A DNA stretch of 38,268 nucleotides from a virus. This document shows positions 4,870 to 32,734 of this stretch, piece by piece. A program made the position numbers and the translations under genes. Numbering within the stretch: position 1 is the first letter of the stretch; the number at the start of each line of letters is the position of its first letter. The notes under the pieces were generated by a model that was not told where the DNA came from, did no database searches, and saw only the letters and a list, made by a program, of their open reading frames with translations. The stretch covers positions 1 through 38,268 of IMG/VR virus record IMGVR_UViG_3300037137_001040. The stretch is one strand, 5' to 3'.

Positions 4870-4903
4870 AATAAAAGGGGACTCTACTGTTTGCAGAGTC
4901 CCC
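4870..4903 (-). terminator. Strong leftward intrinsic terminator
   Basis: Read on the minus strand, a perfect 9-bp stem (GGGGACTCT pairing with AGAGTCCCC, loop GCAAACAGT) is followed by TTTTATT. On the plus strand the stem is not followed by a T tract, so it mainly serves leftward transcription. It may also act as a stem-only stop for the late transcripts that arrive from 4836. Confidence 0.8.
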
Positions 4904-4914
4904 TCATTCCTCAC

Positions 4915-4937
4915 GCATGTCCTCCCCCAGGACATGC
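4915..4937 (-). other. Perfect hairpin inside the small RNA
   Basis: GCATGTCCT and AGGACATGC form a 9-bp stem around a five-base loop, CCCCC on the plus strand and GGGGG in the transcript. It may present the G-rich loop for RNA or protein contact. Confidence 0.75.
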
Positions 4938-5022
4938 TAGCAATGGGACTTATCCTCTTCGCCGATGGAGTAGTGACCCCACCAAGTGTTGCCCGTTGTT
5001 TCTAATTTGACTTTACCCCTAT

Positions 5023-14469: not shown

Positions 14470-14697
14470 CTAGCCCTTTGATCTAACGTCATCTTCATCC
14501 GCAGCCCTACGCCCCAGCTCTCCCCCTATTTCCGATTCGATCTCTCGAATCTTCTTTCTCATTGCTGGACGGTATCTCAAAAGGAATGCTTCAAAGTCCT
14601 TTGTAGTATACTCCCCCAGCTTACTCTTCAGCAATACCCGGATCTTGACCAGATCATGTCTGTGTACCTTGACAGTCTGGCCACGATAGACACGCAT
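14470..14697 (-). CDS. Small charged helical protein
   Basis: 75 residues from ATG 14697, coupled to the upstream gene (TAATG overlap). The first 25 residues are basic (MRVYRGQTVKVHRHDLVKIR), followed by helices rich in Arg, Lys and Glu (MRKKIREIESEIGGELGRRA). It may bind nucleic acid. No family is recognised. Confidence 0.6.
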   Translation of the reverse strand: MRVYRGQTVKVHRHDLVKIRVLLKSKLGEYTTKDFEAFLLRYRPAMRKKIREIESEIGGELGRRAADEDDVRSKG

Positions 14698-14999: not shown

Positions 15000-15040
15000 A
15001 TTATATCAGATTTTGCAGTTGTCGTCAAGACTCGTCCGCG
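15000..15040 (-). promoter_or_regulatory. Leftward promoter P2 (main replication operon), dyad class
   Basis: Minus strand: TCG-CGGA-CGA dyad, GTC, TTGACG (15028-15023), 17-bp spacer, TGA-TATAAT (15005-15000). It drives the 14969-to-5069 operon. The -35 overlaps the last codons of the gene at 15025-15354. Confidence 0.85.
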
Positions 15041-15354
15041 ACCCCGACAGATTCTGATGATTGTGAATACTTGGTAACAGGCCCAGCACCACACTTAGGA
15101 CACCGCCACTTGCCATCAGAATGTACAAAAGCGATGCTGTGATCGCATACTTGCCTATCCGCCTTCAGCGATTGGTTAGCACGCTCTTGCATAATTTCTG
15201 CCCTGAAACGGAATGCCATCGCTACCTCACTTTGTATTGATTGGGCAATTATCCCAGTTTCACATGCTCGACCACTGAGTAGGAAATCAAACCGCTCAAA
15301 ATCAGTTTCACAATCGTCCCATAGTGCATCCATTAACCGTCTTCTGTATTTCAC
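15025..15354 (-). CDS. Helical protein with C-terminal zinc ribbon
   Basis: 109 residues from GTG 15354, seven bases after GGAGGT; longer starts overlapping the helicase gene have no SD. The N-terminal 75 residues are helical and charged (MKYRRRLMDALWDDCETDF). The C-terminus has CDHSIAFVHSDGKWRCPKCG, a zinc-ribbon with C..H..C..C ligands. It may be a DNA-binding accessory of the helicase encoded just upstream. The gene's end contains the P2 promoter. Confidence 0.6.
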   Translation of the reverse strand: MKYRRRLMDALWDDCETDFERFDFLLSGRACETGIIAQSIQSEVAMAFRFRAEIMQERANQSLKADRQVCDHSIAFVHSDGKWRCPKCGAGPVTKYSQSSESVGVADES

Positions 15355-15373
15355 TCTGTTTACCTCCAGTGCA

Positions 15374-16102
15374 CTAACGCTCCTCATCATATGGAGGTAC
15401 AAGTTCCTTTGCCCTGAAGCACAGATCCGTTGCACTCCATGACATTAGAATCTTAGAGAACGTGCGTCTCCCCCTGAACTTAGACGTAGTTCCCAATACC
15501 CTGGCCCCCTCATGTTTGTAGAGCGTAAGAAGAAAATCACAACTGTCCTTGATACCATGAGACCCGGCCAATCGCTCTTCTGTTGTCTCAAAGCCATCTC
15601 GGGAGGGTTTGCGTAAGTGGTGAATTAGCAACACCGCCAAATAATTCTTTACTGCGATCTCCCGAAGGGACCGGATAGCCGTTCGCACGGCCTGAGAATT
15701 GTTTGCATCTACGTCCAGCGCCTCAAGACTATCCACCACTAAGAGAGCATACCCCTGTGATGCCTCCCCCAGCTGTTCCATAGACTGTAGGGATTGAGGG
15801 TAGAACGCAGTAGGGTAATACTCCAGCTCGTTCAGGGTAGAACACCGGCCTAACATAGATTTGATCTTGTCATGCACCGCTGCTGGTGACTCATCCTGCT
15901 CTACAAACAATACCTTTCCCTGTTTCACAGGTTGCTTCATAAACGGGACCCCAGCCTGTACGCAATGAGCCAACTGCAAAGCAAAGCTTGTCTTTCCCAA
16001 GCCACTGTCTCCTATCAACACCGTAATACTTCCTTTGGCTAGTATACCCCCGACCAGCCAGGATAGGGGTTTAGTATCTGTAAACTTACGATTCTTATTC
16101 AT
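15374..16102 (-). CDS. RepA/DnaB-like RecA-fold replicative helicase
   Basis: 242 residues from ATG 16102. Walker A IGDSGLGKTS (residues 30-39, K37), VLFVEQDES, Walker B YALLVVDSLEAL (D124), LLIHHLRKPS, and RLAGSHGIKDSCDFLL. This is the AAA_25/RepA hexameric helicase order. It has only the ATPase core, with no primase or N-terminal domain. It is the only helicase found and is likely the replicative one, acting with the family A polymerase. The SD is weak; translation may be coupled to the gene ending eight bases upstream. Confidence 0.85.
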   Translation of the reverse strand: MNKNRKFTDTKPLSWLVGGILAKGSITVLIGDSGLGKTSFALQLAHCVQAGVPFMKQPVKQGKVLFVEQDESPAAVHDKIKSMLGRCSTLNELEYYPTAFYPQSLQSMEQLGEASQGYALLVVDSLEALDVDANNSQAVRTAIRSLREIAVKNYLAVLLIHHLRKPSRDGFETTEERLAGSHGIKDSCDFLLTLYKHEGARVLGTTSKFRGRRTFSKILMSWSATDLCFRAKELVPPYDEER

Positions 16103-16109: not shown

Positions 16110-16313
16110 CTAAACTATCCTGGGTCTTGGGGGCCACCCATTCACCCACACATCATCAGCAACACCCCAGACAAACCAACCCATCCCACCCTTAGTTCTT
16201 TGCCCCCACGACAGAGCGTAGAATTGACCTAGGTATCGTATCGTTGCCCATTTAAGCCCACCATGATTGCCTCTGGTAATAATCATAATCTTTGGACCAT
16301 CAGGGAAAACCAT
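16110..16313 (-). CDS. Small Trp/Gly-rich protein, first gene after promoter P3
   Basis: 67 residues from ATG 16313 (AAGGTTCTCCTTA upstream). Rich in Trp and aromatic residues (GHHGG-like GNHGGLKWATIRYLG, GMGWFVWGVADDVWVNGW). It heads the P3 transcript that also carries the helicase. The leader from about 16401 to 16313 is purine-rich on the minus strand, with no clear hairpin. No family is recognised. Confidence 0.6.
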   Translation of the reverse strand: MVFPDGPKIMIITRGNHGGLKWATIRYLGQFYALSWGQRTKGGMGWFVWGVADDVWVNGWPPRPRIV

Positions 16314-16449: not shown

Positions 16450-16734
16450 CTACTTGGGCTCGTTTTTGCCAAGTCTTATACCCAGCATGATACCAAAATA
16501 CAACAACGCCTCTACAGCAGCCCGAGTCTCCTCAGTCGGTCGCCACCCGGCCCCGTTTAGAGCTAGCGTAGCCATAGCATTCATGTCTTGACAGTCGGAG
16601 TCTGTTAGCTGTGGTCGTACCTTTGCGCTCAAGGGTATGAGCTGTTCTACCAGCGCATGACCCCGAGCAAGTAGTGCCTCTGTCTTTGTGGTCTCTGTGA
16701 ATGGTCTCCCCCAATGCAGTTTATCATTTTCCAT
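16450..16734 (-). CDS. Small helical protein of unknown function
   Basis: 94 residues from ATG 16734 with GGAGGAA upstream. Largely helical with an Ala/Leu-rich C-terminus (AAVEALLYFGIMLGIRLGKN) that could be a TM or amphipathic helix. It ends just upstream of P3, so it is the last gene of the 19474-to-16450 leftward cluster. No family is recognised. Confidence 0.6.
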   Translation of the reverse strand: MENDKLHWGRPFTETTKTEALLARGHALVEQLIPLSAKVRPQLTDSDCQDMNAMATLALNGAGWRPTEETRAAVEALLYFGIMLGIRLGKNEPK

Positions 16735-17960: not shown

Positions 17961-18713
17961 CTATCTCCACACCGCTTTGCGGTTTTTGGGATCAGCAAAT
18001 ACTCCCCAGAAGCACTCAGCAAGGGCCTCGTAGTACTCAGCCCCGGCCTTGTCGTACTCAGCACGGGCCTTGTTGTACTCAGCCCCGGCCTTGTCGTACT
18101 CAGCACGGGCCTTGTTGTACTCAGCCTCGGTCTTGTCGTACTCAGCACGGGCCTTGTTGTACTCAGCCTCGGCGTAGTGCTCAGTCCCGGCCTTCTTGTA
18201 GTACTCAGCCTCGGCCTTGTAGTATTCAACACGGGCCTCGTAGTACTCAGCCCCGGCCTTGTCGTACTCAGCACGGGCCTTGTCGCGCTTAGCACGGGCT
18301 TTGTTGTACTTAACAGGCCATAATGCTCTTGTTAACAGTAACTGACCAGGCACTTCTGGTACGCCAATATGGCCAAACCTACCATCCTTGATCGCTTGGG
18401 CTATCTCAGATGGAAAGTTATCAGGAGAGCTGAAGTCAGTACACTCCTTTGGTACGTCAATATGGCCAAACCTACCATCCTTGATCGCTTGGGCTATCTC
18501 AGATGGAAAGTTATCAGGAGAGCTGAAGTCAGTACACTCCTTGTGGACACCTTCGCACCTATGGTATCTTGCGATAGCTCCATGCCCTTTCAGGTCTTCT
18601 CGGTCACCACAGAATAGGATCAGTTCTAGCCCTCTGGGAGTAGCTAGATCCTCGTTGGTCAGGTACTTGATCGTACCATCTGCTAATTGAATCCAAGAAA
18701 CAAATTCACACAT
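17961..18713 (-). CDS. Repeat protein: tandem 31-residue repeat plus heptad coiled coil
   Basis: 250 residues from ATG 18713, with AGGAGG six bases upstream. Residues 1-55 form a globular start (DGTIKYLTNEDLATPRGLEL ... GHGAIARYH). Then a 31-residue unit (KECTDFSSPDNFPSEIAQAI ...) occurs twice. From about residue 134 to 235, some 14 heptads of the type KARAEYD / KAGAEYY / KTEAEYN form an alanine/tyrosine coiled coil. A short end FADPKNRKAVWR closes it. The repeats are near identical in DNA and could vary in number by slippage. Function unknown. Confidence 0.7.
   Translation of the reverse strand: MCEFVSWIQLADGTIKYLTNEDLATPRGLELILFCGDREDLKGHGAIARYHRCEGVHKECTDFSSPDNFPSEIAQAIKDGRFGHIDVPKECTDFSSPDNFPSEIAQAIKDGRFGHIGVPEVPGQLLLTRALWPVKYNKARAKRDKARAEYDKAGAEYYEARVEYYKAEAEYYKKAGTEHYAEAEYNKARAEYDKTEAEYNKARAEYDKAGAEYNKARAEYDKAGAEYYEALAECFWGVFADPKNRKAVWR
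18000..18310 (-). repeat. 21/42-bp coding repeats (heptad coiled coil)
   Basis: On the plus strand the words cagcacgggccttgt and cagccccggcctt alternate, with gtactcag between, giving 21-bp units grouped as 42-bp pairs. Each 21 bp encodes one heptad. They look like an array but contain no spacers, so this is not CRISPR. Likely length-variable. Confidence 0.85.
18361..18546 (-). repeat. 93-bp tandem duplication
   Basis: Copies at 18361-18453 and 18454-18546 are identical except one base near the start (c 18364 / t 18457) and the last few bases. They encode the two 31-residue repeats. The identity implies a recent duplication. Confidence 0.9.
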
Positions 18714-19796: not shown

Positions 19797-19900
19797 CTCG
19801 TTGGATCTCGCTGGATCTCGCTGGATCATGGGCCGTAAACGTCCAGTGTTTACTTTGGCTCGCTGGATCTCGTGTGCGTAAAGCTGGCACCTCGCTGGAT
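19797..19900 (+). repeat. Iterons CTCGYTGGAT x5
   Basis: The 10-bp word CTCGCTGGAT (first copy CTCGTTGGAT) lies at 19797, 19807, 19817, 19859 and 19891. The first three abut with exactly 10-bp spacing, about one helical turn. The copies at 19797 and 19859 are also preceded by TTTGG and followed by CTCG, so a longer 18-19-base unit is repeated. All point the same way, and AT-rich DNA follows. Likely initiator binding sites. Confidence 0.75.
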
Positions 19901-19948
19901 CTCACTTTATATCTAGGAAATGTTTATTATGTTGGGTATATGGGTCGT

Positions 19949-20047
19949 CTATGATGGACAGGAAAGCTGGGGCGGTTGACTTGCCAGTAGTATAGACACT
20001 GTGTGCAGATCTCTTTCCCCCTGCGCCGTAAAAACGCAATCTAGCAT
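19949..20047 (-). CDS. Short ORF with strong SD in control region
   Basis: ATG 20047 has TTTAGGAGGAAAA directly upstream, an ideal SD. It encodes 32 residues (MLDCVFTAQGERDLHTVSIL...). The same frame is open to TTG 20170 with a signal-like start, but without an SD. It could be a leader peptide for leftward transcription. No promoter is evident. Confidence 0.35.
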   Translation of the reverse strand: MLDCVFTAQGERDLHTVSILLASQPPQLSCPS

Positions 20048-20202
20048 TTTTCCTCCTAAAACGATTAAACTTTCAACAATCCCTCCGGGCGCAAACCAGA
20101 TACGCAGCTGGGTCCTAGGGAACTTTGAAGCTGCGGCGCACAAAAACACAGATACGAAAATCAGGCCCAAAGCTAGGGTAGTATTAACTAGTATTACTAT
20201 TG

Positions 20203-20233
20203 GACCATTATGTCTCTTACGAGACTAATGGTC
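20203..20233. other. Inverted repeat/hairpin
   Basis: GACCATTA-T-GTCTC, loop TTAC, GAGAC-TAATGGTC: 13 paired bases with one bulged T. There is no T tract, so it is an operator or structured origin element rather than a terminator. Confidence 0.65.
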
Positions 20234-20350
20234 TATACTGGTTTAAGACCCTTCTCCTCACCCCTTCTCCTCACCCCCTCTCTATAGTCTCCCCCCCCCT
20301 AGGTTCTTACCCTAAGTCCCTCCCTGCTCCCCCACTAGATTCAAATAACT

Positions 20351-20391
20351 CGTATGCGAGTCTTGACAACCTGGGAGAAATATGGTATAAT
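20351..20391 (+). promoter_or_regulatory. Rightward promoter P4 (early genes and terminase), dyad class
   Basis: TCG-TATG-CGA, GTC, TTGACA (20363-20368), 17-bp spacer, TGG-TATAAT (20386-20391). It drives the HNH-like, zinc-motif and terminase genes. Confidence 0.9.
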
Positions 20392-20425
20392 AGGGGTCTC
20401 AGAATTTCAGCTGGGAGAAAAACAA

Positions 20426-20587
20426 GTGGACTACAATCTATGGCTTGACCGTTACATAGAAAACTTTCTGGCTAAGACAGAACAGGGAACTGATTCGTGC
20501 TGGATTTGGAAAGGTTGTAGAAATACACAAGGTTATGGGGGAGTTGAGTTTCGGGGGAGTGCGCTTGTACATCTCAAACAGAGGTAG
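20426..20587 (+). CDS. Truncated HNH homing endonuclease (N-terminal part)
   Basis: 53 residues from GTG 20426, eight bases after GGAGA and just downstream of P4. It reads DYNLWLDRYIENFLAKTEQG, then CWIWKGCRNTQGYGGVEFRG. This is the N-terminal part of HNH_3-type homing endonucleases (CW.W.G....GYG...). The frame stops where aHR..yel..G.IP and the catalytic HNH should follow, so it cannot be an active nuclease. The following gene starts six bases later. It is complementary in content to the HNH relic at 16724-16942 on the other strand. Confidence 0.65.
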   Translation: MDYNLWLDRYIENFLAKTEQGTDSCWIWKGCRNTQGYGGVEFRGSALVHLKQR

Positions 20588-20592
20588 TAGTC

Positions 20593-20727
20593 ATGATAGA
20601 ATGCCCTAGATGCGAGGGTACGGGTCAGGTCTACACTGAGGATCGGGATGTCTCTACGACTTGCCTACTCTGCAAAGGATCAGGTAAACTTCCAGATAAG
20701 AAAGGAGGAAGTAATGGGTGTATGTAA
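20593..20727 (+). CDS. DnaJ-like CxxCxGxG zinc protein A
   Basis: 44 residues from ATG 20593. Two motifs, CPRCEGTG and CLLCKGSG, 16 residues apart, form one complete zinc site of the DnaJ cysteine-rich type. The C-terminus is Lys/Gly-rich. It overlaps the next gene, which carries the same pair of motifs. Small free-standing CxxCxGxG proteins are common in phages and plants; the role is unknown but chaperone or adaptor functions are suggested. Confidence 0.75.
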   Translation: MIECPRCEGTGQVYTEDRDVSTTCLLCKGSGKLPDKKGGSNGCM

Positions 20728-20839
20728 GTGTTGCGGCGGAACAGGCAAGGGCAAAATAGACCAACCAAACCTGAACCAAGAACCCTGCTGCCTGTACTGT
20801 CATGGAACTGGCTACGCTGTAGATGGTGGGAACTCATGA
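20714..20839 (+). CDS. DnaJ-like CxxCxGxG zinc protein B
   Basis: 41 residues from ATG 20714, with an ideal AAAGGAGGAAGTA SD inside the previous gene. Motifs CKCCGGTG and CLYCHGTG are separated by 16 residues (KGKIDQPNLNQEPC). It is a paralogue of the gene just upstream. Its TGA overlaps the next start (ATGA). Confidence 0.75.
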   Translation: MGVCKCCGGTGKGKIDQPNLNQEPCCLYCHGTGYAVDGGNS

Positions 20840-21057
20840 GGAGTCAGATCAGAGCTCAACTCTACATACAGATTGACCGGGTAGGAGATACCGCCTTTGA
20901 GTGCCGTATTGGGCCACTGGGCTACGGGACTGAGAAGTTGGTGGGCCGGGGAGGTTCACCGATCTCGGCTTGGAAAGCTTGGCTGGATGAGTTTGAGAAG
21001 GTAATCACTGCTCCTGACGAGGCTCGAATGACTGGCTTTGGGGCAGAGGAGGACTAG
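20836..21057 (+). CDS. Small protein of unknown function
   Basis: 73 residues from ATG 20836, coupled to the preceding stop. It begins MRSQIRAQLYIQIDRVGDTA, then a strand-rich middle (CRIGPLGYGTEKLVGRGGSP) and a helical end (AWKAWLDEFEKVITAPDEAR). A small alpha/beta fold; no family recognised. Confidence 0.6.
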   Translation: MRSQIRAQLYIQIDRVGDTAFECRIGPLGYGTEKLVGRGGSPISAWKAWLDEFEKVITAPDEARMTGFGAEED

Positions 21058-21060
21058 ACT

Positions 21061-21318
21061 GTGGAACTCTCTGTGATGTTTGATAAAGACCGCCATATGG
21101 TTCGTTTCCAACTTGGCGATACGATAGCCTACTTCCCACTTGATGACACAGAAAGCTTTCTTGAGAAGGTGAGTGTGGTCGTTGAGACTGCCAAGTATGA
21201 TGAGGGCGACCAAATAACCATGGCGCAGCATATTCAGCAATCACTTAATGCTTGGGAACGGATGTTAGCAGCGCCCTCCGTCGAGCCTCCCGTTAGATAC
21301 ACGGAAAAGGAGAACTAA
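21061..21318 (+). CDS. Small acidic protein of unknown function
   Basis: 85 residues from GTG 21061, with GAGGAGGAC upstream. Strand-rich first half (MELSVMFDKDRHMVRFQLGD) and a helical second half (QHIQQSLNAWERMLA). Acidic overall. It precedes the small gene before the terminase. No family recognised. Confidence 0.55.
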   Translation: MELSVMFDKDRHMVRFQLGDTIAYFPLDDTESFLEKVSVVVETAKYDEGDQITMAQHIQQSLNAWERMLAAPSVEPPVRYTEKEN

Positions 21319-21319
21319 G

Positions 21320-21484
21320 ATGCCCTTGTTACCAGGTCCAGGTGCGGATGTTCACCAGAAAAATGTCGAGGAGCTAATGCACAAGTTCCACAAAACTGGG
21401 CAGATCGGTCGGATCAAACCCCGCTCTGAGGCCCACGCCAGAAGAATTGCCAATGCTATTGCCTACAAAGAAAGTAGTGAGTAG
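21320..21484 (+). CDS. Small phage protein preceding terminase
   Basis: 54 residues from ATG 21320 behind AAAAGGAGAAC. It reads MPLLPGPGADVHQKNVEELM, HKFHKTGQIGR, then ARRIANAIAYKE. This matches a common small phage protein layout (GxxxxV..Ni.El......A..IAyAiA), usually next to terminase or structural genes. Function unknown. Its stop overlaps the next GTG. Confidence 0.65.
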   Translation: MPLLPGPGADVHQKNVEELMHKFHKTGQIGRIKPRSEAHARRIANAIAYKESSE

Positions 21485-22104
21485 TGGTCACTATCAACGA
21501 TGACCTCCCCCAACCAAAGCGAAAGGTAGGGCGTCCTAGAAAAGAGGGCATCAGCCCCACCATTTGCAAGAGAAAGGACGAGGGCCTGACAGCTCTGCAA
21601 GTTCAGTTTCTCTTAGATCCTGAGAGTGTGCATCCCAGTCCTAAGACCTGGGGGTGTTGGAAGTGTGATCCCAACTTCACTAACTTACTGGAGCTTGTGA
21701 AGCAGGCCAGAGCGATGAGTACTGCTACAATGGTTGAAAAAGCTAGAACGATTGTGGCAGATGCTCTTGCAGGTAAGATGGGGAGCGACGAGAATGACCG
21801 ACTTCGGGTTGATGTGGCATGGAAATTAGTACAGGCATATCCCGAGAAGTTAGTAAAGAAAGTCGTCTTCAAGGGCTGGCGGGACATGAATACACAGACG
21901 ATCCCCCAGCATAAGATGCGTCGAATTCTTGAGGAGATTGAAAACGACAAATCTGTTAAGAAGGACCTTCTCCCGATAGATTATATTGGGCACACAAAGC
22001 TGGGGTCCCCCACTAATCGGGAATCTGGTTCTGAGGAGCGGATGAGAGAAGCAGTCCTCCTAGAAGGCGAGTATGATACGTTTGAGGAGGAAGCAGCTCT
22101 ATGA
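21484..22104 (+). CDS. Terminase small subunit (putative)
   Basis: 206 residues from GTG 21484, which shares a base with the previous stop. Basic N-terminus (PKRKVGRPRKEG) and a central helical region (ICKRKDEGLTALQVQFLL ... LVKQARAMSTATMVEKARTI) suit a DNA-binding small terminase. It ends acidic and overlaps the large subunit start by four bases. Position and coupling are the main evidence. Its central ADALAGKMGSDENDRLRVDV segment resembles other small terminases. Confidence 0.65.
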   Translation: MVTINDDLPQPKRKVGRPRKEGISPTICKRKDEGLTALQVQFLLDPESVHPSPKTWGCWKCDPNFTNLLELVKQARAMSTATMVEKARTIVADALAGKMGSDENDRLRVDVAWKLVQAYPEKLVKKVVFKGWRDMNTQTIPQHKMRRILEEIENDKSVKKDLLPIDYIGHTKLGSPTNRESGSEERMREAVLLEGEYDTFEEEAAL

Positions 22105-23420
22105 CAGATCCTGTATTGTCTCTGGGGGACGAGGAGATCGTTGTTGATCTTAGTAGGTACTTCAAACCCCACCCAGTCCAGAGTTATATTCTCCGATGCC
22201 GAGCCAGGTGGGTACTTCTGGAATGTGGACGGCGCTTTGGCAAGGGCCGAGCCGCAATCTTCTGGATTCTCAAACACTATCTAGTCCTCATGTCAAAACC
22301 CCGCCCCGCGTCCTTGGTGCCCGTAGTGCATATTGGTGTCTTCGTTCCTTCTCTTAACTCGATCACTGTGCCCTGGTTGGAATTAAAGAAATTTGTGCCC
22401 CCGGAGTTGGTATTAAAGATTGATGAGGGAGCCCATACTATCGACCTCCTCGGGGGTGGTTTGATCGAGGTTCGATCTGCCGATATTCGAGCAATTCAAC
22501 AAGGAGTAGGATACGATATGATCTGGATTACTGAGGCTGACAAGATCGAGCGGTCAGTCTTCAATGACATTGTTCCCATGCTCAGATCTCCTTTCCGTGC
22601 TGGCCTAGCCTGGATTGAGTCTAAGCCGTACCAAGAGACTGGGTGGTTTCATGAGTTGTTTCAGATGGGACAGCACCCAACGAAACAGCTGGAGTCCTTC
22701 CACTTCAGTACCTTGACCAATCCTTTTGTGGACTGGGATGAGATTGAGTTTGATAGGCAGATCATGACCGATAGGGATTGGAGCCGTGAGTACCTGGCTG
22801 AGATCGAGTCAGGGTCTGAGGCGGCATTTCCTAGTTGGAAGGTGGGGCTGATGCCACTAGACTGGCAAGCTCCCTTCCCCAATAGTAGCCACTTTTATCA
22901 TGTTGGTGTAGACCTAGGAAAGCAGGTGGACTATACAGTGATCTCAGTATTTGACCTCTGTACACGCGAAATTGTCTACATCGACCGCTTCCAAACAGCA
23001 TGGGAGGAGGTGCGCCGCCGCGTGGCGGCTACCTCTAAGCTCTACAATACTCAGGGCTGCCCTGCTCCTGTTTATATTGATACTACAGGTAAAGGGGAGC
23101 CGGTGGTGGCGCAGCTCATTACAGAAGAGCCAGATCTGCCAATCTATGGTGTAGATATCAATCAGACGGTTCGATACCAGCTTTTTTCACGGATGGCGCT
23201 GGGGATTGAGAAGGGGGACCTACGGTATCCTAATTGGGAGCCACTATCAAAAGAACTTGCCTTGATGAAGCGTATCTCTAAGGCCCCTTGTGACCAATTC
23301 AAGATGACTGGAGGGCGGCAACATGATGATATTGTCTTTTCCATAGCCCTTGCCTACACACGAGAGCAGATATCTGATGTCACAGTTAGTTACACCAGAT
23401 CGAGGATGATAGAAAAATAG
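22101..23420 (+). CDS. terL: Terminase large subunit
   Basis: 439 residues from ATG 22101. ATPase: LLECGRRFGKGRAA (K48) as Walker A, YDMIWITEADKI as Walker B with catalytic Glu145. Nuclease (RNase H fold): HVGVDLGKQVDYTV (D271), VYIDTTGKGE (D327) and GGRQHDDIVFSIALA (D409/D410). It packages DNA into proheads as an ATP-driven motor and cuts the concatemer. Full length with all key residues. It is followed by the P5 promoter. The packaging mode (cos, pac or repeat) cannot be read from this sequence alone. Confidence 0.95.
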   Translation: MTDPVLSLGDEEIVVDLSRYFKPHPVQSYILRCRARWVLLECGRRFGKGRAAIFWILKHYLVLMSKPRPASLVPVVHIGVFVPSLNSITVPWLELKKFVPPELVLKIDEGAHTIDLLGGGLIEVRSADIRAIQQGVGYDMIWITEADKIERSVFNDIVPMLRSPFRAGLAWIESKPYQETGWFHELFQMGQHPTKQLESFHFSTLTNPFVDWDEIEFDRQIMTDRDWSREYLAEIESGSEAAFPSWKVGLMPLDWQAPFPNSSHFYHVGVDLGKQVDYTVISVFDLCTREIVYIDRFQTAWEEVRRRVAATSKLYNTQGCPAPVYIDTTGKGEPVVAQLITEEPDLPIYGVDINQTVRYQLFSRMALGIEKGDLRYPNWEPLSKELALMKRISKAPCDQFKMTGGRQHDDIVFSIALAYTREQISDVTVSYTRSRMIEK

Positions 23421-23427
23421 GATAGAT

Positions 23428-23468
23428 CGTAAACGAGTCTTGACAAAAGTGTGAAAATATGGTATAAT
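23428..23468 (+). promoter_or_regulatory. Rightward promoter P5 (portal operon), dyad class
   Basis: TCG-TAAA-CGA, GTC, TTGACA (23440-23445), 17-bp spacer, TGG-TATAAT (23463-23468). From the dyad through the -35 and the next two bases it is identical to P6. Confidence 0.9.
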
Positions 23469-23589
23469 TATGTTCAGGAAAACTATCATTGTGAAGAATC
23501 GGTTAACATGCCCAGTTTGGGTCCTGTTGGATGTGACTTGACAGGCCAATTTGGTGTAGGTAACCCCAAACTTGGTTAGGAGAGGTCCT
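23469..23589 (+). promoter_or_regulatory. Structured leader of the portal mRNA
   Basis: The 5' UTR of P5 can pair GTTTGGG (about 23514) with CCCAAAC (about 23566), extended by CCA/TGG. A 23-codon frame begins at ATG 23469 with no strong SD. A TTGACA near 23539 lacks a -10. It could fold over or delay the portal start. Only the pairing is seen; any regulation is inference. Confidence 0.4.
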
Positions 23590-25347
23590 ATGGTTATGGA
23601 TAGGCCCACAGGTGACGAGATTGACAAACTCTACGAGGCACTACTTGCCCACTACAAGAACTTTCATGGCCAGTGTGAGACTGAAGACACCTACTATCGC
23701 CGGGAATTTCCAGTTGAGTGTGATGAGAGTGCTACCCCGATCAAACTTCCCATTGCTAAGACCGCTATTGACGATGCTACTGCTCAGGTAGATACCACAA
23801 GTCTGAACATTTACGTTCCTGCTGCGACCTCAACCTATGGCGGGGATGTCGGAGCCAATAAACGGAGACGTTATCTTATTGGTTCGTGGCACATGTGCCG
23901 CACCTACAATGGGTTGGTACTTCATCACGCTGTAAAGCATGGGTTTCTGTATGGAATGAGTATCTTAAAGCTTATGGCCGACCCAGAGGCGCCGTTTCAG
24001 ATGCCGGTTGAGGCTATCAATCCTCAGTGTTTCTTTCCAGACCCAGCCCGCCGGTTTGTAATCGAAGCATACCAACGCAAGGGACTTGAGGTAAAGGCGG
24101 AGTTCTCTAGTTATTATACCGATGAGAATGATGACGAGGCTGTTGATGATCTCGTTGTTGATGATACTGCCGAGGCGCTCTGGATTGAGTATTGGGACGA
24201 CACCTACTGTACCTACCGCTACGGGGGGAAAACCGTTCTACGAATGCAACACAACTATGGCTTTCTTCCGTACTTTTGGGGGGATGCTGGTTTAGGTACT
24301 AAAGATCGTGACAATAAACCAGAATGCCTGTATGTAGGGCTGCTCAATCCGGTTCATAGTCTCCTGGAGGCTCAGAGTCGTCTGATGACGCAGGGGGAGT
24401 CTATTTCTAAACAATATGCTTGGCCCGAGCTAGATTTTGTCTCAGAGACAGTAGAGCGAGCTAAGAAGATTATTGCTGAGTGGGAGCTTGGACCTGGTCG
24501 GCATCATGCCCTGGATCGGTCCACGGAAGTGAAGCGTGTGACGCCGACTTCTGTCCCCCCTGAAATTATGTCTTTGATGCAGATAGTCGGTGATTTTGTT
24601 GAGAATGCTACTGTGCCTAGTATTGTGCGGGGAGAACGACCACAAGGCGCTAGTTCTGGGTATATGACAGCAGTTCTGGCCGGGCTTGCTCGGGTGAAGT
24701 TTGGTGGTGTGGTGGCTTTGATTGAGTCGTTAATCCAACAAGTCAATATGGGATACCTGAAGCTTGTTGAGAATGTGTTTGAAGAGATTACAGTATGGGG
24801 CCGGACTAGGGCTGGAGAAGAGATTTGTGACACAATCACCAAAGCTGATGTTGGTGGTAGTTACGTCAATTTTGTCGACGTGTCGGCCATCCCCCCAGAA
24901 GAGCAGGAACGCACGTTGATGGTGGGGTCTAGACTTCGACAGGCTAAACAGATTAGTCGTAGATATTGGGTAACAAACTTCCTAAAGCCAACAGACCCGG
25001 AGGCGGAGCTGGAGCAGCAGTATCTGGATATTTTTATGGAATCTGAGACGGGGCAGCAGTTAGTATCACAGCTAGCATTTAAGAACTATGAGGCAGCTCA
25101 GATGCTGACCAACGTAGGCGCGGATCAGGCTGCCAATATCATACGGGGTACTGCTGGGGCAGCCGTGCCCCCTATGGGTGGTGAGTACACAGAACAGGAC
25201 CGGGCCTACGGGCGGCCGCAGCAAGCCGGATCTGTTGGGGAGTTATCAGCGATTGGGAAGACCATAGGGGCACAAGGTGTCCTCCCCCATGTTACGAATG
25301 CACGACGCGAGGTGATTGATCAACTAAAACGGAGGGGGCAGGGATAA
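23590..25347 (+). CDS. Portal protein (putative)
   Basis: 585 residues from ATG 23590, seven bases after AGGAG. It follows terminase and precedes scaffold and capsid genes, the usual portal position. Helical and mixed, with segments typical of podovirus portals: PIKLPIAKTAIDDATAQVDT near the N-terminus, VKHGFLYGMSILKLM, PQCFFPDPA, and a long helical C-terminal region ending in Gln/Gly-rich linkers. It forms the ring through which DNA enters. The assignment is by size, composition and order; no strict motif exists. Confidence 0.75.
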   Translation: MVMDRPTGDEIDKLYEALLAHYKNFHGQCETEDTYYRREFPVECDESATPIKLPIAKTAIDDATAQVDTTSLNIYVPAATSTYGGDVGANKRRRYLIGSWHMCRTYNGLVLHHAVKHGFLYGMSILKLMADPEAPFQMPVEAINPQCFFPDPARRFVIEAYQRKGLEVKAEFSSYYTDENDDEAVDDLVVDDTAEALWIEYWDDTYCTYRYGGKTVLRMQHNYGFLPYFWGDAGLGTKDRDNKPECLYVGLLNPVHSLLEAQSRLMTQGESISKQYAWPELDFVSETVERAKKIIAEWELGPGRHHALDRSTEVKRVTPTSVPPEIMSLMQIVGDFVENATVPSIVRGERPQGASSGYMTAVLAGLARVKFGGVVALIESLIQQVNMGYLKLVENVFEEITVWGRTRAGEEICDTITKADVGGSYVNFVDVSAIPPEEQERTLMVGSRLRQAKQISRRYWVTNFLKPTDPEAELEQQYLDIFMESETGQQLVSQLAFKNYEAAQMLTNVGADQAANIIRGTAGAAVPPMGGEYTEQDRAYGRPQQAGSVGELSAIGKTIGAQGVLPHVTNARREVIDQLKRRGQG

Positions 25348-26273
25348 TGGCAGACATAACAAAGAATGAGGTTGTAAGTTTTCTTACAAGTAAAGGCTAC
25401 TCAAAGGACCTAGCCGAGAATCTGTGGGGTCTGGGGGAGAAGAAAACACGAGGCAGGTTTGGGTTGCGGGCCTGGGAGATTTGGGCGCAGTCTGCGCAGA
25501 CCCTACTTGATGCTGGTGTGACCGATCTTAGTCCATACGACGAGGACTTTCCTGGGTTGATGGCTGCCGCCAAGCAATTTACTACCAAAACCCGGACTTC
25601 GACCCTTGCTCAGCTAGGAGTTACAGAGGATGATGTAGTTAAGGCATCGACCATGGGAATTGATCTGGTCGCTGGTGGAGCTGGGGCCGTTTCTGCGTAC
25701 CAGGCTAAGCTTAACCAGCAAGCTCTTACCACCAGTAATGCTAATCTGCTGACAAGCCTCAAAGCCTCAGGCGGGTATACCGACTCACAGTTGGATATCC
25801 TTCAGGAGTTGATGGATGAGCAGGGAATGGATCTATCGGAGGCTCTGGCTGGGATGCAGGCTATCTCTGGTGCTGGGGGAGGTGATGTCTGGCAGAAACA
25901 ATATCAACTGTCAACTATGCCCCCGTTCTACTGGGCAAATCAGTGGGCTATGCAGAACCCGACTCAGGCCGCTGCTGGGCAGGGAGCCCCGGCCCCTGGT
26001 TGGTTATCGCAAATAGTACCAGGTCTGGGGACCGGCTCTTCTATTGGGGCCCAAGGGGCTGGCACACTCGCAGGTATGCCACGGGTATTGGCCACACAAG
26101 ACTGGGCCAACATGCCAGCTACCCAAAAAGAGGGCGTGGGTGGGTATCTGAATTGGATATATTCTAACCCGGAGGCTCTGGGTAACTACGCCACGGCGGT
26201 ACAACGACGGGCAGCCCCTGGCGGGGCTCCGACCGTGTCGCCCAAGTGGGGGTCTACGTCATGGGGCTTGTAG
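25347..26273 (+). CDS. Virion protein of unknown function
   Basis: 308 residues, start coupled to the portal stop (TAATG). Helical N-terminal half (LTSKGYSKDLAENLWGLGEK ... AWEIWAQSAQTLLDAG) and an Ala/Gly/Gln-rich second half (AAAGQGAPAPGWLSQIVPGL). The position between portal and the giant virion protein suggests an internal core or ejection protein. No motif identified. Confidence 0.6.
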   Translation: MADITKNEVVSFLTSKGYSKDLAENLWGLGEKKTRGRFGLRAWEIWAQSAQTLLDAGVTDLSPYDEDFPGLMAAAKQFTTKTRTSTLAQLGVTEDDVVKASTMGIDLVAGGAGAVSAYQAKLNQQALTTSNANLLTSLKASGGYTDSQLDILQELMDEQGMDLSEALAGMQAISGAGGGDVWQKQYQLSTMPPFYWANQWAMQNPTQAAAGQGAPAPGWLSQIVPGLGTGSSIGAQGAGTLAGMPRVLATQDWANMPATQKEGVGGYLNWIYSNPEALGNYATAVQRRAAPGGAPTVSPKWGSTSWGL

Positions 26274-29200
26274 GGAGCGCAACCGCCGCTCGGCAGGAAC
26301 GTCAGAGGACTCGGGCAGCTAAGACTTTAGCTAGGGCCGGGATATCCCCAACCTCCCCCACTACACCTATTGCTACGGCAGAGGCTGTGGAGAAGCCATA
26401 TGTCGATATTCCTGGGGACAACAGCTGGAAGAAGAAGAATTTTTGGAATAAGGCTGGTGCTGTTGTGTCCGCCCCGGTACGAGAAGTCAGCGAGAAACTA
26501 GAGAACTGGGTGGCAATGCCCTTTAGGGGTACTATTGCATCCACAGCATATGCTCTCTCGCCTGGAGATATAAAGGGGGAGGAAGAGTACCGAGAGAAAA
26601 TGTCCAAGCGTGGGGGAGCCGGGGGATGGGGAGCACTTAAGGCTGCCTCCGATAGTTTTAAGGAGTCCTACCCTGTCTACTCTACTTTTGTTGTCGATAC
26701 TGCGAATCCTGTGTGGTGGACAACACCCGGTGGTGTTGCTGGGGGAGCGTCAAAAGTAACGACTCGGGCTGCTTTTGCCACGAAGAGTGTTGAGGAGTTG
26801 GCTGGCGGGGGCGCGTTGGCGTCCCAGGCCCTTCGCGGGCTCAAGGCCACAGAGCGCGGAGCTACAGCCGCGCGATTGGGGCGGGCGGGAAAGGGTCTAA
26901 CCGAAGCAGAACAGTTAGTTTTGTCTCGTGGTGTGACTGCTGCTGAAGAAATCAAACAGGGTGTCCGTGCTGGTCTTGCGGGCCGCCGGGCTCAGTATGC
27001 TGTTAAGACTGCCGATGCGCTCGACGCTGTGCAACATGCTGAACAATGGACGATGAACTTGGCTCCTCGGGGAATCAAATATGTGGCTGAGATCGCTGGG
27101 AAGCGTACTCCACTTAAGTACCCAATTGGGAGGACCCAACAGTTTTGGTCCGAACTTTCAATGAAGACTGGTGGTAAGTGGGATAGTCGTTTCAACCCCT
27201 TTGCCTACGCTAAGATTGCTAGGGCAGGCGTGGCTGAGCAGCGAGCTTGGAATGCTGTGAAGTTTATTGGAGAGATCGTTCCCGAGGGAAGTCTTAGTAC
27301 CGCATCCCGGCCCACAGTCGCTGAGGCTGCGGAGAGAATCCGCCTCTTTACTTACGACTCCCCCAAGATCATGAGCAAGCTTAAGTTGATGAGCGAGACG
27401 TTCCCGGCACAGGTCAAAGAGGAGCGTAGGTTGCTGGCCGAGGCTGCTAATAGGTGGTCAGAAACAGCTGTTGAGGAGGGTGTAGACTTCTTTGATGAGC
27501 TTGCCCGCGTCGCTGGTGACGACCTGGATGACTTCTACCTAAAGATTGCGGATCAGGTACGTTATACAGAGTCTGTGCGTATAGGAGCAACCAAGTTTCG
27601 ATGGGTTGCGACTAAAGAGGGGACTCTGAGTCAGGGCTTAGAGGTTGGAAAAGATCTGAGGGGTCTTGACGAGGTGACTCTGAAACAATATGTAGAGAAG
27701 GGTTATATCTATCAGCAGAAGGTTGAATGGAGAGGGGATCGCTGGTTTCAGTGGAATCAGGTAGTTAAGTCTCAGATCCTTTACCCCACCGCACTGGTTG
27801 CCAGGCCGGGGTATACTGTCTATAACCAGATGTATAATCTGCACGCGATTTTGCTCGCTACGGGTCTTAAAGCATATGGGGGCATGACAGGACAGGGTGC
27901 TGGGACGTTAAATCGTTGGGTGAACCAAATGATTCTGCGGGAGGAGAAAGAGGTTGTGGTTGGGAGTGCTCGATCCAATCTCCTACGGCTTCTTCGCGGC
28001 AAAGGGTTTGAGCGTCGGGTTATTGTCGTTGAGACCGCAGTGCCCTCATTTCAGCGGGCTGGGTTGCAGTCAGGATTAACAACCGAGGCAATGAACTGGT
28101 CTAATCCAGCGAAGCGTGCCTTTTGGACAAAGCTTGGGGCCTTGAGTGAGTTTCCACGTGCGATGCAGGGTTTGAATCAGCGGGGGGAGACTTGGGCACA
28201 CCGAGTTTTATTTGACACGACATTTTCTAAGCACTTTACACCCTCGCTCCATGAGGCTCTGCTTCAACGAGTGGGGGAGGGGCGTCTTACACTGGAACAG
28301 GCCGATGCAATGAGCCATCTAACTGGGCTTCAACATGCTGATGAGGTCCTGTTGGCTGGGGGAACTCGTACTGGGGTTCTAAAAGATCAACTGGCGCTGG
28401 AGAATCTTAGTCCTGATGTTCAAGCACTAGCTCTAGAGATCCTAGACCGTGACTACAATCGTGTTTACGCTTCTCCTGAGTTGTTCCGTGAGGCGGGGGA
28501 TAAATTCTTTCTCGAACTTGATGCAGCAGTCAGAGACTACGCGCATGATCAGGCAATTGTGAATACAATAACAAAGGCAGATAATCTCGGGGCTGCTGAA
28601 CTCGACCAGGTTAAGGTTTTAGAGGATGTGGATACCGCGTTTGTAGAATGGAAGACTGTGTTTCCTGGGCGAGGTGATGAGATCGAAGAACTTCGCTCGC
28701 TAATGACGGAGGAGACCCGCCGCCGTACAGATGCGTGGTTGCAAAAGGTTCGGGAGTTTAACAAACAGAATGTGGATGATGTAAGAATCGAATTGATCAA
28801 TGCCGGGCAGACTGGAACTACTGAGGTACGGAATCGCGCTGTGAAATTACACAAGGCTTTTGAGACAAATACTGCAAAATCCTATCATCTCCGTTGTGCT
28901 GAGATCTCTCAGCTTACCCAGAATCGAAATGTGTCAGTCAGGATTCTTCGAGACCACCCCCCGAAAGACCTGGCAACGTTCATTGCCAAAGAGAAGAAGA
29001 TTGATGATATCTACTGGAAGCAGTATATGCAAGCGTGGGATCGACACAACAAACGAGTAGCTGCTTTTGCTAGAGAGACTCGGGGACGCCTCAAGCCTGG
29101 GCCTGAGATGTCCACACGGTTACAGTCACTAACATCAGACGAGGTGGCAAGTGAGATTTTTGATAGTATTGTGGGTCCTGATAGAAATCCTTATCGACGC

Positions 29201-31051
29201 CTCTCCACAGTGCAGGAGGTTAAGGCTGGTATGAGGCAGGACCTGGCCAAAATCCGTCGAGTTCGTGCTAAGTTCAAGGGGGAGGCTACACAGCCTAGAA
29301 CGGCTTTGTCCAAGGAGGGGGTTGAGGCTGTCTATGATTCTTACCGGGAGGCTATCGGGATTGCTCAGATCAAAGCAACCCAGGATACTCAAACCTTTCT
29401 GTTTGCCTATGGAAATGTTTCTAACCTTGATTATTGGTTGATGCACGTTTCCCCGTTCCCGTTTTTTGCCGACCGACACTTATTGTCAATGGCTACATAC
29501 GCCTTAGATCACCCACGTAAGTTGGCGATGTTTACTCATATGGTCAACAACTGGTATGAGATGAACAAGGACATGCCCCTGTCTCAACGATTGTCTATCG
29601 CTACGGAGGTTACTCTACCTGGAGGGAGTAGGGTTTTGTTTCGGCCTCTGGCCTGGTTTCAACCCACAAACTACGGGATCATGCAGATTATTGCGCTGGG
29701 ACAGGACGACAAAGAGAACAACACAGTTGTTGATGTCGTTAATACCTTCCAGGACTTTACTGGGGGCTTCATCTACCCCCAGTTAGAGATTGGGGGAGGC
29801 TATGCGGCGCAGGCCGTGGGTCTGGATCGTTTTGTCCAGAACAGATATGGGGTCTTTCGTACCCCCGAAGAGGCTCTCCGAAGCCTGGTCCCTCAGCAGG
29901 GGCTCCTAAAGAATACCATGGCCACTAATAAGGGTCAGGCCGAGTGGCTGATCAAGAGTACAGATCCATTCTTCTCGTTAGACGAGAGCCAGAAAGCTTC
30001 AGCGATCTACATGTTGGAGGAAATGATTGCGGCGGGGGAGATTGATGAGGTAACCGGCAAACAGTCGGCCTACAACCTAGTAAACCACGTGGCTGACAAG
30101 TATAACACTATTGCCGTAGAGCGGGCGTTGGGACGTGATCTGTGGCCGAAGTTGGTGCAGTACAATGGCCTACCCATCACAGCCTATACGCCTGGGTGGC
30201 AAAGAAGTCAGATGATCCAGGCCAAACTCCAAGAGGGCGTCCCCGAAGGAATGGAGCGGGTCTACGCACCTGGTTGGGTTACAGACTTCAGGAAGTCAAT
30301 GGGGGATTACGGGCTCTCTAAGTATATTCCACCCCGAGAACTGTCCCCGGCTAGAGCTAGTGAGTGGCGCTCGACTGTTGCCTACTGGCACGGCGTTGAC
30401 ATGGCTCGAGCGGAGCAGAAAGCATATCAGCTTCGGCTGGACGAGGCATACCAGTGCGGGGAGATTGATGGTCCGGCTTGGGTGGAGCTTCGTCAAGCAA
30501 GTTACCAGAACTACAACGGTGCAGTCGAGTTGTTAGCTAAGGAATATCCAGAGGCAAACACAACGACTGACGCATTGACAAGTTTCAATTCTGCGCTGGG
30601 AAGGACCATAGCCCCCGTTCATCCATACCGAGCTGTTGTTGAGGGGTATTTTGCGATTGAGTTAGACGAGGGATACCCACCGGATTACTCATCCCTGGCC
30701 GAACGACGGGCTCAGTACATGGCAAACCTCCCCCATGACCAGAAAGTATATTTGGAGTGGTATATCACCCGGACTCTTACCCCGGTGGAGCAAGCCTACA
30801 AACGGGCAGTGAGGACAATGCAGCCATACTGGAATATCGAGCGTGAGGTAATGGAGAAACGCGGATTGACAGCTTTGTGGTTGCAGGTGAGAAATGATCA
30901 GGACGCCGAGAATACTTTGCGGCAATCCAATCCGCAATACAATTCTGCTATGGCCGAGGTTGCGCGGCTACGCAAGGTGATCCGCCAGGCACATCCAGAC
31001 ATTGCCGAGGCCGGAACTCGCTATTGGGGGCTAAAGCCAATGTTGAAATAA
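26261..31051 (+). CDS. Giant internal virion/ejection-type protein
   Basis: About 1,596 residues from ATG 26261; GTG 26246 is also possible, and neither has a clear SD. It overlaps the previous gene. Mostly alpha-helical and charged, with an Ala/Gly-rich start (GGVAGGASKVTTRAAFATKS). Two segments resemble large phage internal or polyvalent proteins: ALVARPGYTVYNQMYNLHAI at about 510-530, and HVSPFPFFADRHLLSMATYA near 1065. No lysozyme, transglycosylase, protease or polymerase motif was found. In podoviruses one very large protein in this position usually forms the ejected core. Late part (from about 1290) is helix-rich. Stays without a named function. Confidence 0.7.
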   Translation: MGLVGSATAARQERQRTRAAKTLARAGISPTSPTTPIATAEAVEKPYVDIPGDNSWKKKNFWNKAGAVVSAPVREVSEKLENWVAMPFRGTIASTAYALSPGDIKGEEEYREKMSKRGGAGGWGALKAASDSFKESYPVYSTFVVDTANPVWWTTPGGVAGGASKVTTRAAFATKSVEELAGGGALASQALRGLKATERGATAARLGRAGKGLTEAEQLVLSRGVTAAEEIKQGVRAGLAGRRAQYAVKTADALDAVQHAEQWTMNLAPRGIKYVAEIAGKRTPLKYPIGRTQQFWSELSMKTGGKWDSRFNPFAYAKIARAGVAEQRAWNAVKFIGEIVPEGSLSTASRPTVAEAAERIRLFTYDSPKIMSKLKLMSETFPAQVKEERRLLAEAANRWSETAVEEGVDFFDELARVAGDDLDDFYLKIADQVRYTESVRIGATKFRWVATKEGTLSQGLEVGKDLRGLDEVTLKQYVEKGYIYQQKVEWRGDRWFQWNQVVKSQILYPTALVARPGYTVYNQMYNLHAILLATGLKAYGGMTGQGAGTLNRWVNQMILREEKEVVVGSARSNLLRLLRGKGFERRVIVVETAVPSFQRAGLQSGLTTEAMNWSNPAKRAFWTKLGALSEFPRAMQGLNQRGETWAHRVLFDTTFSKHFTPSLHEALLQRVGEGRLTLEQADAMSHLTGLQHADEVLLAGGTRTGVLKDQLALENLSPDVQALALEILDRDYNRVYASPELFREAGDKFFLELDAAVRDYAHDQAIVNTITKADNLGAAELDQVKVLEDVDTAFVEWKTVFPGRGDEIEELRSLMTEETRRRTDAWLQKVREFNKQNVDDVRIELINAGQTGTTEVRNRAVKLHKAFETNTAKSYHLRCAEISQLTQNRNVSVRILRDHPPKDLATFIAKEKKIDDIYWKQYMQAWDRHNKRVAAFARETRGRLKPGPEMSTRLQSLTSDEVASEIFDSIVGPDRNPYRRLSTVQEVKAGMRQDLAKIRRVRAKFKGEATQPRTALSKEGVEAVYDSYREAIGIAQIKATQDTQTFLFAYGNVSNLDYWLMHVSPFPFFADRHLLSMATYALDHPRKLAMFTHMVNNWYEMNKDMPLSQRLSIATEVTLPGGSRVLFRPLAWFQPTNYGIMQIIALGQDDKENNTVVDVVNTFQDFTGGFIYPQLEIGGGYAAQAVGLDRFVQNRYGVFRTPEEALRSLVPQQGLLKNTMATNKGQAEWLIKSTDPFFSLDESQKASAIYMLEEMIAAGEIDEVTGKQSAYNLVNHVADKYNTIAVERALGRDLWPKLVQYNGLPITAYTPGWQRSQMIQAKLQEGVPEGMERVYAPGWVTDFRKSMGDYGLSKYIPPRELSPARASEWRSTVAYWHGVDMARAEQKAYQLRLDEAYQCGEIDGPAWVELRQASYQNYNGAVELLAKEYPEANTTTDALTSFNSALGRTIAPVHPYRAVVEGYFAIELDEGYPPDYSSLAERRAQYMANLPHDQKVYLEWYITRTLTPVEQAYKRAVRTMQPYWNIEREVMEKRGLTALWLQVRNDQDAENTLRQSNPQYNSAMAEVARLRKVIRQAHPDIAEAGTRYWGLKPMLK

Positions 31052-31053
31052 GT

Positions 31054-31094
31054 CGTAAACGAGTCTTGACAAAACGCTGATTTTGTGGTATAAT
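31054..31094 (+). promoter_or_regulatory. Rightward promoter P6 (capsid operon), dyad class
   Basis: TCG-TAAA-CGA, GTC, TTGACA (31066-31071), 17-bp spacer, TGG-TATAAT (31089-31094). It starts right after the 1.6 kaa gene and drives scaffold, capsid and downstream genes. Confidence 0.9.
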
Positions 31095-31156
31095 AAGACA
31101 AGTGTGAAAAATGGGTAAATACCCATGAATTTACGTAAATGGAGGATGTAAACAAT

Positions 31157-31837
31157 ATGGTACAATCTGACGCCGAGAGAGCTGGGGTTTCTATCGAGGA
31201 GACGCCAGCAGTGATTGAGGAGTTAGAGCCGGTAGTTGAGGACCCAAAGGAAACTGAAGAGGGTATTGAGGAGACGGGTGCGGAGCCCGCGCAGGCGACT
31301 TCTAGTGAGGGTGGGCTTGATCCTGAAGCGCGTAAGTATATTGACGAGAAGTTTGACCTACTTGCTAGTGTACTTGCCAAAGGAAACCAGAGTCAAGCAG
31401 ACAAGCTACTAGATCGCATCTCTAAGGTGGTACAAAGGGTGATTCCTTCCGATTTCGATGACCCGGCGACGGAGGTCCTTGTGACCTACTGGGAGGCCAA
31501 GGGCGGGAAGCGGGAGAATATGCCTGATACCAGCAAAGCTGCAAACCCGAATGAGGCATTTACTATGCTAACCAAAGCAGCGCGGAGATTAGCAGTGACG
31601 AAGCCTGTTGTAGAGGCACCCACAGCGCCCTCAACCACAGTGGTGAATCCTGGTCCTGGGACTACACCCACGAAACCTATTGTAACTACCGCAACCAAGA
31701 CTGTACCGCCAAAGGCTGGGCGTGGGGTTCGGCCCGATACAAGAGAGATACTCCGCGATTTGATGGCCTCTGGAGGTATTGACTTTCAGCAGTATATGGA
31801 CCGAGCAAAGAAGATAGGATATGACCCGCTACACTAG
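31157..31837 (+). CDS. Scaffolding protein (putative)
   Basis: 226 residues from ATG 31157 (GGAGG 11 bases upstream; ATG 31139 is also in frame). N-terminus is strongly acidic and Glu/Pro-rich (IEELEPVVEDPKETEEGIEE), then a helical segment (KYIDEKFDLLASVLAKGNQS) and a Pro/Thr-rich linker. The C-terminus is basic and helical (REILRDLMASGGIDFQQYMD), as needed to bind the coat. Composition and position directly before the capsid gene fit a scaffold that is removed during maturation. Confidence 0.75.
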   Translation: MVQSDAERAGVSIEETPAVIEELEPVVEDPKETEEGIEETGAEPAQATSSEGGLDPEARKYIDEKFDLLASVLAKGNQSQADKLLDRISKVVQRVIPSDFDDPATEVLVTYWEAKGGKRENMPDTSKAANPNEAFTMLTKAARRLAVTKPVVEAPTAPSTTVVNPGPGTTPTKPIVTTATKTVPPKAGRGVRPDTREILRDLMASGGIDFQQYMDRAKKIGYDPLH

Positions 31838-31873
31838 ACTGAAAGAGGGTGGTCGGGTTGAGAAGGAGTTAAC

Positions 31874-32734
31874 GTGGCAACTAATGTAGCTGCAAGTTTT
31901 ACAAGTCAAGAGAAGACTATTATTGAGAGGTGTCGATTCTACGCGCAGTTCAATGCGCTGATGCCCTCACTGGTTACACAGTTCACCATGCCTGCTGGGA
32001 ATAGGCAGATTACGGTTAATAGGTACTCTGACCTTTCAGCGGATGCGCTGACTGACGGTGTCGATATGGCCATAGGAAAGGCCCTTGGTTTGGATACTGT
32101 GACACTGACCACCTCAGAGTATGGTCTAAAGGTCATTGTCACCAAGAAGATGGTTCGTGAGAATGTCGACAATGTGTTCGCAAATGCCGGCAAATTGGCT
32201 GGGGATGCGATGGCCAAGTACCGCGAGAAGCTTCTGTTAGCTTTGTTCTCTGGCGTATCAACATATACGGTCGGTTCCGCATCAACCGAACTTACCTTGG
32301 GGCATATTGCTGCTGCTGTGTCTACCCTGGACTCAGTCCCGGCGTCTGGAGAGTATGTGGGGGTGTTTCATCCCTTTAGCTTGAAGGATCTGTGGGATGA
32401 CCTAACGGCTCACGGCGCTAACGTACATGTACCTTGGTACGGACTGGCTGAGGACATGGCTCGGAAGTACATTCGTGGTCGGGACCGGATCTCCGGTATA
32501 CCTATCATGGTTGATGGGAACCTGGTTCCAGATGGTGCTGACGACGTTGTGAGTGGGGTATTCTGTCGAGAGGCATTTGGTCTGGTTACAGAAAAAACCT
32601 GGGATGTTGAGAAAGAAGTAGACGCATCTATGAGAGCCACGGAGCTGGTCTTTGTGGCGGATGAGGGCGTGGCGGAGTTGGTCGACAAGTATTGCGTGCA
32701 GATGACCTTCGATGCCGCGAGAGAAACTGCATAG
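31874..32734 (+). CDS. Major capsid protein (HK97-fold, putative)
   Basis: 286 residues from GTG 31874 behind AAGGAG. N-terminal helix (SQEKTIIERCRFYAQFNALM), then ITVNRYSDLSADALTDGVDM and LTTSEYGLKVIVTKKMVREN, and a P-domain-like region around residues 105-170. HPFSLKDLWDDLTAHG and GIPIMVDGNLVPDGADD follow, typical of HK97-type coats of podovirus-like phages. Position after the scaffold supports this. It is followed by a strong hairpin that may adjust expression. Confidence 0.85.
   Translation: MATNVAASFTSQEKTIIERCRFYAQFNALMPSLVTQFTMPAGNRQITVNRYSDLSADALTDGVDMAIGKALGLDTVTLTTSEYGLKVIVTKKMVRENVDNVFANAGKLAGDAMAKYREKLLLALFSGVSTYTVGSASTELTLGHIAAAVSTLDSVPASGEYVGVFHPFSLKDLWDDLTAHGANVHVPWYGLAEDMARKYIRGRDRISGIPIMVDGNLVPDGADDVVSGVFCREAFGLVTEKTWDVEKEVDASMRATELVFVADEGVAELVDKYCVQMTFDAARETA

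Follow-up and report, generated by a model that had tools for sequence, protein, structure and literature searches.

All six consensus promoters in the genome of this phage carry the same upstream tag, a TCG-N4-CGA dyad set three bases in front of the -35 box, and judging from its sequence and placement this tag most probably serves as the binding site for a protein that would control a large part of the phage genome together. The sequence studied was the 38,268-base virus record IMGVR_UViG_3300037137_001040, taken over its whole length (the window). A direct scan of the whole window for TCG-N4-CGA, N3, TTGAC, N18 and TATAAT returned exactly six matches, three per strand, with dyads starting at 5064(-), 15041(-), 16449(-), 20350(+), 23427(+) and 31053(+). 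The six promoters on both strands, and the grammar of dyad, -35, spacer and -10 given for them in the preliminary description, were thus recovered exactly (6/6); its coordinates placed the cassettes correctly but omitted the first T of each dyad, which falls one base outside. Allowing up to three mismatches to the full cassette still gave exactly six matches against 0.00 expected from 100 shuffles. In a weight-matrix scan the six sites scored 48-60 bits and the runner-up 8 bits, a score attained by 7% of shuffled genomes, and the upstream part of the cassette had no further near match in the genome. The chance probability of six or more invariant columns among the 13 upstream ones is 1.5e-15. 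The word TCG-N4-CGA alone occurs 11 times versus 4.9 expected, and its five non-promoter copies are at chance level.

The core that follows the dyad is that of a sigma-70/sigma-A promoter with an extended -10, a TTGACA-like -35, a 17-bp spacer, TGN and TATAAT being present at 6/6 sites. All six sites, and no other promoter in the genome, score 11-12/12 against the consensus with TG, and TTGAC-TATAAT pairs with a spacer of 16-18 are present at these six places only across the whole genome; every consensus promoter in the genome therefore bears the dyad.

On the minus strand, P1 (5023-5064; dyad TCGTATGCGA at 5064-5055, -35 from 5051, -10 ending at 5023; 12/12 with TG) begins 4 nt beyond the end of ORF 5069-5404, at the convergent end; the small genes referred to here are uncurated calls from a simple script. 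The -35 box of P2 (15000-15041; dyad TCGCGGACGA at 15041-15032; 11/12 with TG) contains the stop codon of ORF 15025-15435, and downstream of it lies the leftward recombination/replication block with its nuclease, UDG and polymerase genes. P3 (16408-16449; dyad TCGGATACGA at 16449-16440; 11/12 with TG) directly abuts the stop of ORF 16450-16734 and is followed by ORF 16110-16313 and then the AAA_25 ATPase gene 15374-16102. On the plus strand, P4 (20350-20391; dyad TCGTATGCGA at 20350-20359; 12/12 with TG) opens the rightward packaging/structural unit, with the large terminase gene (22101-23420) downstream. P5 (23427-23468; dyad TCGTAAACGA at 23427-23436; 12/12 with TG) sits 6 nt past the large terminase gene and upstream of ORF 23572/23590-25347, by position only the probable portal gene. 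P6 (31053-31094; dyad TCGTAAACGA at 31053-31062; 12/12 with TG) lies 1 nt past ORF 26246-31051; downstream of it come ORF 31139-31837, whose position suggests a probable scaffold gene, and then the capsid gene 31874-32734 (PF25209 match, E=1e-7). The identity of P5 and P6 from the dyad into the start of the spacer, pointed out earlier, extends over their first 22 bases.

Several other features of the genome were noted. A possible degenerate seventh cassette at 20207-20248(-), reading TCTTAAACCA..TAGACC..CATAAT and divergent from P4, was dismissed, its 8.0 bits not being significant (equalled in 7% of shuffled genomes). A long near-perfect palindrome, GGACCATTA-T-GTCTC-TTAC-GAGAC-TAATGGTC, occupies 20202-20233 between the divergent arms (DNA fold z-score -5), and a CTCGCTGGATCTCG unit recurs five times at 19797-19906, in the gene-poor region between the arms, with three copies arranged head to tail every 10 bases; these repeats are possible iterons or an origin. 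Gene 17961-18713(-) contains 21-base tandem repeats at 18033-18273, which encode a 7-residue repeat. The ends of the record form a direct terminal repeat (1-169 and 38100-38268; 169 bases, one mismatch), so that the record, though classed as linear, is probably a complete genome, circular or terminally redundant.

Comparison of the six cassettes with one another separates the tag from its surroundings. TCG, CGA, TTGAC and TATAAT are 100% identical across the six sites. Elsewhere the mean pairwise identity drops to 45% for the four bases at the dyad centre, 32% over the spacer's first ten bases, 25-26% for the flanks upstream and 26-28% downstream; because the flanks are random, the six cassettes are not recent copies of one another. 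The cassette begins 0-6 nt past a stop codon in four cases (P1, P3, P5 and P6), so that the dyad forms the outer border of a compact unit of 42 bp at gene junctions. Counted from a predicted transcription start, with the -10 box taken as -12 to -7, the dyad spans about -48 to -39 and is centred at about -43.5, and its spacing to the -35 box is exactly 3 bp in 6/6 cassettes. Fixed half-sites around a freer centre resemble the binding site of a protein dimer; we hold this reading with moderate confidence, since a 3+3-bp symmetry has a 1/64 chance of arising given six invariant bases. Both the dyad centre and the link to the -35 box lean somewhat towards asymmetric sequences, mainly TANR and RKC, which makes a monomer or an asymmetric site possible as well. 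The C directly before TTGAC is general for this promoter type (73% of 378 other promoters) and was therefore left outside the special element.

P1 probably drives a short structured non-coding RNA, as suggested by the sequence downstream of it: about 149 nt there are without a plausible gene, and the candidate transcript (4868-5016(-), from a predicted start) has a fold z-score of -4.84 and ends at a 13-pair terminator stem (4905-4875) with a U-rich tail. This candidate RNA has no Rfam match. It contains the hairpin GCATGTCC-TGGGGGA-GGACATGC, with an over-represented octamer word in its loop, followed by the strong terminator. The octamer TGGGGGAG has 57 copies over both strands, roughly one every 660 bases, where shuffles predict 2.2, and lies within and between genes (for example at 4929(-), 16429(-), 30735(-) and 36639(+)), and is nearly absent from the other loci compared; it could be a Chi-like, uptake, packaging or host word, and a literature search returned nothing relevant to it.

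The occurrence of the same core elsewhere shows which part of the cassette is particular to this phage. A scan of viral contigs for CTTGAC-N13-TGTGGTATAAT matched at least 120 stretches, and the matches listed contain at least 329 promoters with a TTGAC-N15-TGN-TATAAT core; among them the dyad was in place at 0 of 329. None of the other viral contigs scanned contains the strict grammar, and matches to the full motif or its parts there are scattered singles with a different link or -10 context, which look like chance and were set aside. Among 84,980 prokaryote species genomes the strict form matched once, at a Campylobacterales promoter in an unrelated context, probably by chance. The dyad is likewise absent from promoters of a phage from Manatee Spring, DSL-LC06, Microcystis phage Mae-JY09, Pelagibacter phage HTVC112P and the left half of phage tf. 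In 12 promoter-rich contigs (6-25 such promoters each) the best fixed 3+3-base word pair occurred in at most 45% of promoters, compared with 100% here. Some promoter-rich contigs do have a promoter sub-family with a common upstream sequence (for example TTAAC repeats in contig L164), so that phage-specific elements beside the -35 box are not unique to this phage; their universality is. As the same core occurs elsewhere without the dyad, for instance in Pseudomonas phage tf, the core is ordinary and the dyad seemingly private to this phage, and on these comparisons the dyad looks like a phage-specific addition to a common core. Among the interpretations offered previously, that of a phage-specific element, which could bring both arms under one factor, is thus the best supported: every consensus promoter here has the dyad, and promoters of the same type elsewhere lack it. 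The use of the core as a pointer to a particular host group was dropped, the same core being present in a Pseudomonas phage and many others. As separate observations, contigs L164, L085, L155 and L092 pack 15-25 consensus promoters into about 12 kb, and in many of these the -35 box lies within an inverted repeat such as GGGGC-TTGACAA-GCCCC, and L164 and L103 have TTAAC repeats just upstream of their promoters.

No candidate for the binding protein emerged from the gene content. Six-frame searches of the genome gave no match to HTH_3, RHH_1, Ogr_Delta (PF04606), an integrase or a resolvase; tyrosine recombinase PF00589 had no match at E<=1, a threshold that a very divergent member could escape. 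The earlier remark that no regulator gene was recognised agrees with these searches. Close relatives by terminase, DNA polymerase, capsid and ATPase were absent among the viral contigs searched, and DNA matches were found neither in phages (bases 20001-32000) nor in plasmids (bases 1-25000); protein relatives are distant ones only, with none for the probable portal. Single-sequence folds of two small unknown proteins at 14473-14697 and 16453-16734 reached mean pLDDT values of 59 and 72, and a PDB sequence search with 14473-14697 and 13800-14420 gave nothing useful.

Our preferred reading, which we consider fairly probable, is that the dyad is the operator of a phage-encoded regulator of a kind not recognised by these searches; it is favoured because the half-sites, -35 and -10 are fully conserved while flanks, centre and spacer vary. 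Each site would then be a self-contained 42-bp cassette made of a consensus host sigma-70/sigma-A core, an extended -10 and an operator in front; one phage-encoded DNA-binding protein would occupy all six operators, and its binding would switch the leftward and rightward units together. The analysis establishes the six sites, how uniform they are, their apparent restriction to this phage and the type of core; the binding of a protein, its encoding by the phage and the sign of its effect are inferred. For the sign, negative control by a phage-encoded repressor or gate is a serious possibility, though one that falls short of an even chance, in which the bound protein would cover or crowd the -35/sigma region 4 surface until removed or titrated. 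Negative control is favoured because near-perfect cores should fire unaided, and it gains from the fact that repeated operators at strong phage promoters are known (SPbeta MrpR and the cluster A repressors). On the other side, the position of a repressor site with respect to the -35 box can usually vary, whereas the spacing here is invariant, and the lack of any integrase, resolvase, HTH_3, RHH_1 or Ogr_Delta match leaves lysogeny without support and weakens the case for a repressor. A stronger form of the operator reading, possible but tentative, is that TCG-N4-CGA, at a fixed register by the -35 box, is read by a phage regulator whose fold is unrecognised and which is the sole switch of every strong promoter (both units and the non-coding RNA), as a private promoter code over ordinary host promoters.

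Positive control by the same kind of protein is somewhat unlikely. In that case a class II-type activator encoded by the phage would bind the dyad and contact sigma region 4 or the alpha subunit from -43.5; its role could, for example, be to sustain the activity of phage promoters after the host polymerase has been modified or become subject to competition. Exactly fixed spacing is typical of polymerase-contacting activators, class II sites are centred at -41.5, close to the predicted centre here, and the conserved link, RK ahead of the general C, hints that contacts reach as far as the -35 box. Well-known activator-dependent phage promoters, in contrast, usually have poor -35 boxes, the cores here score 11-12/12 with TG, and the searches gave no match to Ogr_Delta. 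The proposal that the dyad is typical of an activator site is thus only half supported: its fixed spacing and its -43.5 centre agree with an activator, but the cores fit a repressed promoter at least equally.

A host-encoded transcription factor exploited by the phage would accord with the failure to recognise a phage regulator but is improbable, given the single match among prokaryote genomes (the host may lie outside that set, and other spacings are possible) and the disuse of the dyad in viral contigs with the same core, among the matches listed. No more probable is an intrinsic promoter element read by host RNA polymerase through an UP-like alpha contact or an extended sigma-region-4 contact: the dyad sits at the position of the proximal UP subsite in constant register, yet an element read by the polymerase should recur in other phages and host genes, and it is missing from all 329 same-core promoters among the matches listed. 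UP elements are A-tract-rich at about -46 to -38, whereas the invariant bases there are TCG and CGA, which leaves an AT-rich UP element unsupported. A site for DNA processing (nicking, modification or protection) that coincides with promoters has a precedent in the site-specific nick consensus of phages such as tf (PMC3517423); we regard it as very improbable, since the nick sites of tf are confined to a single strand and mostly fall away from annotated promoters, whereas the sites here are on both strands and at promoters only, and there is no reason to expect a fixed distance to the -35 box. Least probable of all is a functionless tag on recently copied promoters; P5 and P6 do have their 22 bases in common, but the low identity of spacer start, dyad centre and flanks against invariant half-sites strongly disfavours copying.

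The arrangement was compared with known systems of phage regulation. P2-type late promoters are activated by Ogr/Delta through a dyad at about -55 and have poor -35 boxes; they share with this phage a dyad in front of the -35 box that tags several promoters, on either strand, for a single phage factor (a putative one here), but here the centre is at -43.5, the boxes are consensus and an Ogr_Delta match is lacking. In SPbeta the SPBRE motif is repeated in promoter regions genome-wide and is bound by the master repressor MrpR (PMC10516654). The likeness lies in one short motif repeated at promoters and in a single phage protein as its binder, putative in this phage, whose family is not obvious from sequence; SPBRE, however, is 15-bp long and MrpR has a tyrosine-recombinase fold (PMC10516654), to which no match was found in this phage, and SPbeta is temperate whereas this phage is without an integrase or resolvase match. 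Cluster A mycobacteriophages carry more than 20 asymmetric 13-bp repressor operators/stoperators, many of them away from promoters (PMC9283540); they resemble this phage in spreading many sites over the genome, some in promoters, but here there are six sites, all and only at promoters. Phage tf and its LUZ24-like relatives have the same core (for example CTTGACAAAAGCTCGAAAGTGTGGTATAAT), and the promoters of tf are reported to coincide in position with those mapped by experiment in LUZ24 (PMC3517423), but tf is without a common upstream TCG-N4-CGA.

The arrangement, a single regulatory site repeated along a phage genome, is real but of an already known kind. Should all six sites be bound by one protein, the gene for it would encode a new phage regulator that belongs to no recognisable family, and the tightness of the grammar would make it an exact probe for finding that gene. 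The cassette itself would be a compact, strong and regulatable promoter, and the sign of control would tell whether near-consensus phage promoters get silenced or are lifted above host competition.
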